Shown: piece after piece, positions 4,082 through 35,566 of the stretch
Position numbering within the stretch: position 1 is the first letter of the stretch
Layout: the number at the start of each line of letters is the position of its first letter
Origin: Woeseiaceae bacterium
GTDB taxonomy: Bacteria; Pseudomonadota; Gammaproteobacteria; Steroidobacterales; Woeseiaceae
NCBI GenBank assembly: GCA_021773135.1
Contig: JAJFKP010000032.1
Span: 1-35,566, forward strand
Direction: 5' to 3'
Length of the DNA stretch: 35,566 nt
The notes under the pieces: generated by a model
Seen by the model: only the letters and a program-made list of their open reading frames with translations
Databases searched by the model: none
Told to the model about the DNA's origin: nothing
Made by a program: the position numbers and the translations under genes

Positions 4082-4241
4082 TTGAACGCCGCGATGCAGG
4101 CGGAGCCGCACCCTGGCGACGTCGTTGGGTCCGTGATTCTTCCCCTTTCACCCGGAAATGCCAGCAGGCAAAGCCGCCGGTCAACACGCGCATGGCCTGA
4201 TCCTCTGGGTCCAGTGCAGTGGGCGATCAACAATCAAGGCT

Positions 4242-4568
4242 CTGTTCGCCGAGTTCCTGACCTGTACCGATCTGCTGCCAGCGCGGCCGCGTTTAAGATG
4301 ATCGAGGAAGTGCGGCGTCAGTTCCGCGACGATCCGGGCATCATGGAAGGCACCAGCGATCTGGGCGTCAAACGCGGGCGGCGCCTGGGACAACGCCATG
4401 AAGTACATCGAAGCCGGCAATCTCGGTGGCAAGGGCACCGACGCCCACCAAGCTGCAGTCACCGGCGACACGGTTGGCGACCCTTACAAGGATACTGCAG
4501 GCCGGGCGATCAATCCGCTGATCAGGATTATCAACATAGTCGCGCTGCCGATGGTGCCGCTGCTCTGA
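4242..4568 (+). pseudogene. Broken chimeric remnant of a second pyrophosphatase gene
   Basis: Three blocks match hppA in order. Block 1 (4242-4280) matches 281-319 moderately. Block 2 (4281-4360) matches 447-526 with three mismatches. Block 3 (from about 4358) matches 694-780 closely. The 170-bp gap between blocks 2 and 3 lies between two GCGATC motifs in the intact gene (522-527 and 692-697) and shifts the frame. After about 4444 the sequence stops resembling the local hppA and instead encodes [21 protein letters not shown] and [13 protein letters not shown] up to a stop at 4566-4568. That ending is typical of K+-independent H+ pumps. The remnant therefore joins pieces of two pyrophosphatase types and cannot give a working protein. 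The stretch 4082-4241 before it shows nothing I recognise. Confidence 0.88.
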
Positions 4569-4620
4569 TCTGTGTGCAGGAACTGCGGACGTAAGTTCAG
4601 GCCGGCTCGATATTCAAGAA

Positions 4621-32835: not shown

Positions 32836-32872
32836 TGGTCGTTTGCATTTTTTACGCAGAGGGAAATTTGTC

Positions 32873-34699
32873 TTGACGGAAAAACGCACAGTCATCAGTA
32901 GCAGCAAGCAAGCCCAACAGTTGAAGGAATTGATTGCACGGGGCAAGGAGCAAGGCTACCTGACCTACGCAGAGGTCAATGACCATCTGCCCAACGATAT
33001 CGTCGATCCCGAGCAGATTGAGGAAATCGTCAACATGATTAACGACATGGGTATCGCCGTTCACGAAAAGGCGCCTGATGTTGATTCGATAACATTGTCA
33101 GAAACTGCGGTTTCAAACGATGACGAAGACGCTGCCGTTGAGGCGGAAGCCGCACTGGCAACCGTTGACGCCGAGTTTGGCCGAACGACAGACCCGGTGC
33201 GCATGTACATGCGCGAGATGGGTACGGTCGAACTGCTAACCCGGCAGGGCGAGATCGAAATCGCCAAGCGCATCGAAGACGGCCTGAACCAGGTCAAATA
33301 TCATATGGCACATTTCCCGCCAACCATCGAGAAGCTGATCGAGGTTGCCGATGCTGTCAATGCCGGCGAGACCAGAATGCAGGACTTTGTGGTTGGCTTT
33401 ATTGACCCGAATGCACCGGACGAGATCAAGTCGCCAGTACAGAAGACAGACGATGACGACGACGATGACGAAGTCGTGGACACGGGTCCAGATCCGGAAG
33501 AAGTTGCCGCACGCTCGAAGAAGATCAAGCGACTTTTCAAGCGTTCGCTTACCGCGATCGATAAATATGGCGCCAAGGACAAAAAGACCGTCAAGGTTCA
33601 GGGAGAGCTTGCCGACCAATTGATGGAACTCAAACTGGCGCCGAAATTGACGGACGTGCTGGTACGAAACCTGCGCGCATCAGTTTCGGTCATCCGCACG
33701 CAGGAACGGCAGGTCATGCAAATCTGCGTGCGTGACGCAGGAATGCCAAGGAAGGACTTCCTGGCGAGCTTCCCGAAGAGCGAGACAGATCTTTCCTGGA
33801 TCGAAAAACATATCCGGGCCAAGCGCAAGCATTCCTCGGTTCTCGGCAAACTGCGAGACGATGTATTGCGCGCGCAGCGCAAGCTGCTCGCGGTAGAAAC
33901 CCTGACGAACCTGAAGATTGCTGAAATCAAGGAAATCAATCGCCAGATGTCCATTGGCGAAGCCAAGGCGCGGCGGGCGAAAAAAGAAATGGTGGAGGCC
34001 AACCTGCGCCTCGTGATCTCAATCGCGAAGAAGTACACAAACCGTGGGCTGCAGTTCCTGGATCTCATCCAGGAGGGCAATATCGGGCTGATGAAGGCAG
34101 TCGATAAATTCGAATATCGACGCGGTTACAAATTCTCGACTTACGCCACCTGGTGGATTCGCCAGGCAATCACGCGCTCAATTGCTGACCAGGCAAGAAC
34201 CATCCGCATTCCGGTGCATATGATCGAAACGATTAACAAACTAAACCGGATTTCGCGCCAGATGTTGCAGGAAATGGGTCGTGAGCCTCTCCCCGACGAG
34301 CTGGCCGAGCGCATGGAAATGCCGGAGGACAAGGTCCGCAAGGTCTTGAAAATTGCGAAAGAGCCAATCTCAATGGAAACGCCGATCGGCGACGACGAAG
34401 ATTCGCACCTGGGTGATTTCATCGAAGACCAGACCGTGCATTCTCCTGTTGATTCGGCAACCTCAGAGGGCCTGAAGGAAACGACCCATTCGGTTCTTGC
34501 CGGGCTGACCCCGCGCGAAGCGAAAGTTTTGCGCATGCGATTTGGCATTGACATGAATACTGATCACACGCTGGAAGAAGTCGGCAAACAGTTCGACGTG
34601 ACTCGCGAGCGTATACGGCAGATAGAAGCCAAAGCGCTACGTAAATTACGGCACCCGACCCGTTCGGATCAGTTGAGAAGTTTCCTGATCGAGGACTGA
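32873..34699 (+). CDS. rpoD: RNA polymerase primary sigma factor RpoD (sigma-70)
   Basis: Directs RNA polymerase to housekeeping promoters. The 608-residue protein has region 1.1 ([24 protein letters not shown]), region 1.2 ([21 protein letters not shown]), a non-conserved insertion with an acidic run (nt 33448-33479), region 2 ([26 protein letters not shown] and [10 protein letters not shown]), region 3 and region 4 with the -35-binding helix-turn-helix ([19 protein letters not shown]). The start is probably TTG at 32873, with AGAGGGA 8 bases upstream; an in-frame TTG at 32843 is not supported by a binding site. Confidence 0.97.
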
Positions 34700-35325: not shown

Positions 35326-35362
35326 GGGCCTGTAGCTCAGTTGGTTAGAGCAGGGGACTCAT
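35326..35362 (+). tRNA. 5' exon of a tRNA with CAU anticodon (probably tRNA-Ile2), interrupted by a group I intron
   Basis: Acceptor strand GGGCCTG, then TA, D-stem GCTC with loop AGTTGGTTA and GAGC, then the 5' side of the anticodon stem GGGGA and loop CTCAT with the anticodon CAT at 35360-35362. The tRNA sequence then stops and intron sequence begins, instead of the expected AA and the 3' half of the stem. tRNA-Ile2, with its lysidine-modified CAU, is the usual host of such introns. An elongator tRNA-Met is the alternative; the 3' half lies outside the window. Confidence 0.9.
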
Positions 35363-35566
35363 CAAAATGGTGCGTTTGCGTCGAAAGATGCAAAGCGAAC
35401 GGGATGAATTCAGGGGAACCTTAGCAGTACGGCTGATGGCAATCCTGAGCCAAGCCGGCAGTACACTGCCGGAAGGTGCAGAGACTACCTGAGAACTTTA
35501 GTGTTCTTAATGACAGGCTAGAGCGTCCCGCCCCTAACAATTCGGTTGAGGGTGATGAGATAGTCC
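35363..35566 (+). ncRNA. Group I self-splicing intron in the tRNA anticodon loop (3' end outside window)
   Basis: The core can be folded by eye. P1 pairs CATCA (35360-35364) with TGGTG (35368-35372), placing a U-G wobble at the 5' splice site after CAU. P2 is 35373-35397 with a GAAA tetraloop. P3 pairs CGGGA (35400-35404) with TCCCG (35526-35530). P4 pairs TCAGG (35410-35414) with CCTGA (35444-35448). P6a is CCGGCAG/CTGCCGG (35455-35461 and 35466-35472). P7 pairs GACTA (35483-35487) with TAGTC (35561-35565). P8 lies at about 35532-35552. An extra hairpin (CCTG/CAGG with AGAAC/GTTCT, 35488-35517) lies between P7 and P3. The blocks GAGCCAAGC, GAAGGTGCAGAGACTA and ATAGTCC match the Azoarcus tRNA-Ile intron pattern. 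The intron should excise itself using a guanosine cofactor. No protein is encoded inside the visible part. Confidence 0.93.

Follow-up and report, generated by a model that had tools for sequence, protein, structure and literature searches.

A tRNA-Ile2(CAU) gene of a Woeseiaceae bacterium very probably interrupted by a group I ribozyme that clusters with phage introns and not with that of Azoarcus

The stretch of DNA examined here (35,566 nucleotides, referred to as the window) ends in what looks like a tRNA gene that breaks off just after its anticodon. Is this a real split gene, which tRNA would it produce, and from which family of ribozymes does the intervening sequence come? The initial annotation had proposed that a group I intron interrupts a CAU tRNA here, and had named the tRNA-Ile intron of Azoarcus as the parallel. 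The evidence supports the interruption, and we consider it highly probable, from comparisons of sequence, that the locus is a genuine split tRNA-Ile2(CAU) gene, in which a group I ribozyme of 233 nt directly follows U36 and belongs to a lineage that groups with phage introns rather than to that of Azoarcus. Introns in tRNA-Ile2 are already known (in Azoarcus, Acidovorax and Burkholderia); what is added here is another lineage at the same site.

The 5' exon occupies positions 35326–35362 of the forward strand (37 nt, GGGCCTG...CTCAT), exactly the coordinates first given for a tRNA that stops right after its anticodon. It comprises the acceptor strand, the D arm, the 5' strand of the anticodon stem, C32, U33 and the anticodon CAU. 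The next 204 nt (35363–35566, forward strand), which reach the end of the window, had been ascribed to a group I intron, and the Rfam model RF00028 indeed matches 35350–35566 (56.0 bits for a gathering cut-off of 50, E 8.8e-12, truncated at the 3' end). When the whole genome is searched, the intron scores 49.8 bits (E 1.9e-11), just below the cut-off, and is the sole RF00028 place reported. The genome is assembled in 64 contigs, one of which (C26) is the window, so that the window stops at a contig end. The first 141 bases of another contig, C37, are the last 141 bases of the window; after this overlap, C37 holds the last 29 nucleotides of the intron (L006:142-170), down to ...GAGTG with its terminal G, and then AATCCCTTGGTCCCAGGTTCGAGTCCTGGCGGGCCCACCA, the 3' half of the tRNA (L006:171-210). 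The initial annotation had made its reading depend on a group I match and on a 3' half complementary to the GGGCCTG and GGGGA strands: besides the RF00028 match, CGGGCCC and TCCCT on C37 pair with the 5' half.

A gene reconstructed from two contigs could be an assembly chimera, made of halves from different places or strains, all the more as the assembly breaks at the end of the window and the two contigs meet by 141 shared bases, a length that resembles an assembler k-mer. However, C26 and C37 are the only contigs of the genome that match the intron, the order rpoD, tRNA-Ile2, monomeric isocitrate dehydrogenase is found in four loci of the same genus (L207, L203, L015 and L018), and the complete split gene lies on a single contig in 13 loci of related genomes. 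A chimera is thus very improbable. The upstream marker of the locus, rpoD, is recognized in the window by its Sigma70 domains (sigma-70, 32843–34699, forward strand); among 49 related loci, 21 also contain it, and a good number of the others are too short to extend that far. The support for the proposed C26–C37 join comes from the overlap and from gene order.

ARAGORN detects no tRNA within the window, as expected for half a gene. Run on the joined sequence with introns allowed, it does find a tRNA, but misplaces the boundary by two bases and names the tRNA Gln(ctg); given the spliced sequence, it reads the anticodon as CAT and assigns the label Met(cat). Standard tRNA finders would therefore miss or misname such a split gene, so that tRNA-Ile2 can look absent in the genomes concerned. 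The tRNAscan-SE 2.0 paper mentions 36 genomes in which introns hide fMet or Ile2 from standard finders (PMC8450103). None of the six frames of the intron stays open for more than 50 codons, so that it contains no homing endonuclease gene. A search of plasmids returned two records, both of which match the tRNA exon alone (query 1-37).

Splicing is predicted to give a 77-nt cloverleaf bearing the anticodon CAT, base for base identical to the uninterrupted gene in 10 of the 30 loci of relatives; five of these 10 are from the same genus (G001, G004, G007, G008 and G010). TilS converts C34 to lysidine. The pairs C4-G69 and C5-G68 in the body of the tRNA presumably designate Ile2 rather than Met, and a TilS_N domain is found in the genome (168.9 bits, above its cut-off); on these two grounds, we take the interrupted tRNA to be tRNA-Ile2(CAU), its identity being deduced from the body. 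RF00005 detects 35 tRNA places in this genome, and no CAT tRNA occurs among the 29 distinct tRNAs that ARAGORN reads in 30 of them. The split gene is therefore, provisionally, the only tRNA-Ile2 candidate found in the assembly, and, provided that the assembly lacks nothing here, the cell would depend on its splicing; this "only copy" argument is weak, because the same decoded set also lacks Met, fMet, Ile-GAT and Ala.

The fold of the intron had been described from the sequence of the window as comprising P1, P2, P3, P4, P6a, P7 and P8; all of these helices are recovered as described except P8, which can be drawn but in two possible registers. We compared the structure drawn on the window's own sequence with an alignment of 54 introns out of 96 non-redundant ones. 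P1 (35360–35372, forward strand, as are all the elements below) pairs CAUCA with UGGUG and places U35362 opposite G35370 at the 5' splice site, as had been suggested; this U-G is present in 54 of the 54 introns, while the fifth pair of P1 is present in only 29. The P2 hairpin (35375–35394), closed by a GAAA loop, shows two-sided changes at eight of its eight pairs, with 95.6% of the cells paired. The 5' strand of P3 (35400–35406) pairs with 35524–35530 (99.7% paired, four of seven pairs invariant), and that of P4 (35410–35415) with 35443–35448 (100% paired, four of six pairs invariant). The P6a hairpin, CCGGCAG/CTGCCGG (35455–35472), shows two-sided changes at all seven pairs (99.2% paired). 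P7 is a pseudoknot formed by GACTA (35483–35487) and TAGTC (35561–35565, located from both the RF00028 match and the alignment); it is invariant and paired in 100% of the cells. Between the 5' strand of P7 and the 3' strand of P3, a P7.1/P7.2-like stem-loop (35488–35517) contains the helices CCTG/CAGG and GAAC/GTTC, paired in 97.7% and 98.6% of the cells, with two-sided changes at one and three of four pairs, respectively. As for P8 (35532–35552), only 54.4% of the cells are paired in the register drawn, and RNAalifold favors a shifted 5-bp register.

Taken over the 54 introns, 92.7% of 3600 cells are paired, against 82.1% in shuffled alignments and 31.9–43.4% when slid by 1–3 columns; two-sided changes are seen at 36 of 67 pairs (25.2 when shuffled), and covariation scores 0.335, as compared with 0.128 when shuffled. 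Not one of 500 shuffles, which ignore relatedness, reaches the observed pairing, number of two-sided changes or covariation score. The covarying elements are P2, P6a, P9, P9.0 and the stem-loop between P7 and P3, while P7 and the greater part of both P1 and P4 fall outside this test because they are invariant. Covariation thus supports the proposed fold. The intron has the features of group I: a core from P3 to P8 with the guanosine site in P7, a covariance model match and a U-G pair at the splice site. The terminal G is found in 128 of 128 introns, but this is so by construction, as the pattern that defined the boundaries demanded CTCAT before the intron and G at its end.

From this architecture, we infer that the transcript would fold so that an external guanosine held in P7 could attack directly behind U36, where P1 has its U-G pair. 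The 5' exon released in this way would then attack behind the terminal G, and the joining of the anticodon arm would yield the 77-nt tRNA, whose C34 would be converted to lysidine by TilS, which would make it read AUA. It could be argued, conversely, that the intron is a degenerate relic that does not splice, the locus being a pseudogene and another tRNA-Ile2 doing the work: the assembly does break inside the intron and the set of tRNAs is incomplete. Yet the core helices are intact, the exons are those of the relatives' uninterrupted genes, and the uninterrupted pattern occurs in none of the 13 intron-bearing genomes, which leaves very little likelihood to a relic.

Is this intron of the Azoarcus type? 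The latter was reportedly first described by Reinhold-Hurek and Shub in 1992; it is inserted directly after the anticodon. The Azoarcus tRNA-Ile(CAU) intron (IC3) resembles that of the window in interrupting the same tRNA, with the same CAU triplet at the end of the 5' exon and the same GUG guide, and in being small and devoid of ORF. The shared gene, insertion position and CAU/GUG guide would be expected if the window held another Azoarcus-type IC3 intron, of common ancestry, which later acquired an insertion between P7 and P3. The structure argues against this. In the Azoarcus sequence as printed (197 nt, vs 233 nt here), the 5' strand of P7 runs straight into the 3' strand of P3, GACTA|GACGGC (PMC8890501), whereas 36 nt separate these strands in the window, which therefore lacks the direct junction that characterizes the Azoarcus type. 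This spacing is 35–100 nt in 127 of 128 tRNA-Ile introns, the remaining one being unreadable by the pattern. The small group I introns that interrupt the anticodon loops of tRNA-Leu(UAA) and tRNA-Arg(CCU) in other Gammaproteobacteria (L023, L024, L249, L251 and others) differ from the window's in the same way, having the direct P7-P3 junction of Azoarcus and falling in a separate clade. On the contrary, introns in tRNA-Thr(UGU) and tRNA-Lys(CUU), two tRNAs that we identified by eye on the basis of the 5' half, share the arrangement of the window. We observed such window-type introns, after anticodons that end in U, in L221, L223, L226, L229, L009 and L232.

The phylogeny agrees with the structure. 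Trees were built from 117, 45, 43 and 32 rows; their groups were named once the sequences had been seen, and they come from short alignments and contain long branches. The window-type and Azoarcus-type sets separate with 98–100% bootstrap support, the split being supported at 100/100 with 45 rows (without Azoarcus) and at 100/99 with 43 rows. The Azoarcus intron falls with the tRNA-Leu and tRNA-Arg introns, and the window type on the opposite side, with phage introns. In AU tests, a single clade of Azoarcus and the window-type tRNA-Ile introns is rejected (p-AU 3.7e-5, 43 rows), and so is a single clade of all CAU-site introns (p 0.0033 with 43 rows; p 0.0009 with 45 rows, without Azoarcus). 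Common ancestry with a later insertion is therefore improbable. The Azoarcus parallel drawn at first thus holds for the insertion site and fails for the ribozyme. That the window-type ribozyme belongs to another lineage than that of Azoarcus is firm on structural grounds, and good if not final on phylogenetic ones. From the P7-P3 stem-loop, the grouping with phage introns and the rejected joint clade, we conclude that two ribozyme lineages occupy one anticodon-loop site, as far as sequence comparison can tell.

Four phage introns fall together with the window type in the 32-row tree (98/97): two in the terminase genes of Vibrio phages (L217, L218), one in psbA of a Synechococcus phage (L327) and one from a Twortvirinae/Staphylococcus phage (L325). 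They share with the window's intron its core sequence and, by eye, the stem-loop inserted between P7 and P3, but they sit in phage genes, whereas the window's sits in a bacterial tRNA. A window-type clade that leaves out these phage introns is not rejected (p 0.208, 32 rows), so that they may branch between the two sets; still in this tree, one tRNA-Arg intron (L251) is assigned by the midpoint branch to the opposite side, although weakly. Helices P7.1 and P7.2 between P7 and P3 define subgroup IA. Helices resembling these are present in the window intron, and the window type may belong to IA. According to one study, more than half of viral group I introns are of subtype IA2, which is otherwise notable only in bacteria (PMC11835236).

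The searched, partly accessible open literature contains no mention that we found of a lineage difference between the Azoarcus and window-type introns. The tRNA-Ile2 introns of Acidovorax and Burkholderia interrupt the same gene, which standard tRNA finders miss there too (PMC8450103). Across the class, a pattern describing an Azoarcus-like intron behind CAU matched in 2 of 369 genomes, and neither match passed the tRNA and intron filter; the pattern is strict, so that Azoarcus-type introns may nonetheless occur in this class.

Among 60 genomes of the genus, family and order, 18 match RF00028, at 20 places: 14 at the tRNA-Ile site (in 13 genomes, including that of the window), one in tRNA-Lys, two in tRNA-Leu and three in 23S rRNA. 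The latter are group I introns in the 23S rRNA genes of family or order relatives (L019, L020 and L026). The uninterrupted tRNA-Ile2 pattern (with at most three mismatches) occurs in 30 of the 60 genomes; none has both the intron and this pattern, and 17 have neither. Within the genus itself (12 genomes), the site is filled in three genomes, empty in seven, and neither form is seen in two. Since filled and empty sites coexist within one genus, the spread of ORF-less tRNA introns is directly testable. A quick tree (117 rows) does not unite the three introns of the genus (three changes), but starred branches permit a single group.

A strict pattern built on the window intron matches at least 119 stretches in the genome collection and one stretch in viral contigs; in an even draw across the class, 23 of 369 genomes match the window-intron pattern. 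Named hosts, among the matches listed, are Lysobacter, Luteimonas, Rhodanobacter and Dyella. The two splice sites are legible in 128 loci, which include that of the window and three phage or viral ones; 8 of the 119 collection loci are excluded because they end inside the intron or the 3' exon. Three window-type tRNA-Ile introns lie on contigs labelled Actinomycetes, Cytophagales and Halobacteria (L064, L082 and L141), which are likely mis-binned or phage DNA.

Phage tRNA genes are split at this site as well. In the Klebsiella jumbo phages Muenster, KP13-7, RCIP0023 and phiKp_21, a tRNA(CAU) is interrupted at the same place, where no feature is annotated, and two of these introns score 104.1 and 103.7 bits with RF00028. 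They share the site and the lineage group of the window's intron and differ from it in being in a phage gene, in the body of the tRNA and in the intron itself (65% identity). We located Klebsiella jumbo-phage tRNA(CAU) introns at L027:3018-3260, in L028 and in L216. ARAGORN calls no tRNA on the joined Muenster exons, whose arms pair by eye, and calls one on L148. In OU509535 (L216), the intron gives a 91% match covering 80% of the query; the body of the tRNA around it is a different one, and a compensating change in P1 is visible by eye.

The Azoarcus-like pattern also has matches in viral contigs, at 61 loci. Flanks of a tRNA(CAU) and an intron core are found in 17 of them (the 3' exon being identified by script in 14 and by eye in three), while flanks or core are missing or unclear in the other 44. 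These 17 loci are L266, L273, L274, L280, L281, L282, L285, L288, L289, L294, L295, L301, L303, L304, L314, L315 and L322; the introns of L273, L314 and L322 end in A instead of G. Five of the 17 viral contigs with Azoarcus-type tRNA(CAU) introns exceed 100 kb. Phage protein families were matched in three of the four viral contigs checked (L266, L304 and L315; none in L289). A 2014 review states that all phage introns seen to date were in protein genes (PMC3984707), and a 2019 paper describes "enigmatic" tRNA introns in Lak phages (PMC6784885).

The position after U36 of CAU tRNAs therefore appears to host two separate ribozyme lineages, in bacterial and phage tRNA genes. It may be, although we hold this only as a tentative and rather unlikely scenario, that introns of the phage lineage colonized the bacterial tRNA-Ile2, tRNA-Lys(CUU) and tRNA-Thr(UGU) genes across Gammaproteobacteria by way of the tRNA genes of jumbo phages, and so hit the site of the Azoarcus lineage independently. 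If this were true, the CAU anticodon loop would be a convergent landing site for two lineages of ribozymes, each present in bacteria and in phages.

Last, we note some other features of the same genome. The last 25 nt of the tRNA (L006:186-210) are directly repeated on C37 at L006:303-327, 92 bp downstream, which may be either an integration scar or a tRNA-end repeat. Among the 128 intron loci scanned, such a copy within 3 kb is seen only in this locus and in L132; by eye, the empty-site relative L206 also has one. At a contig end, C63 carries a tandem array (L004:1-361, period 173, 2.1 copies) of degenerate tRNA-like units with a CAT anticodon, and this array is not in the RF00005 list. In the window, an open frame at 4082–4594 contains stretches that resemble, by eye, the ORFs at 41–937 and 541–948, as if it were a duplicated fragment of that gene.
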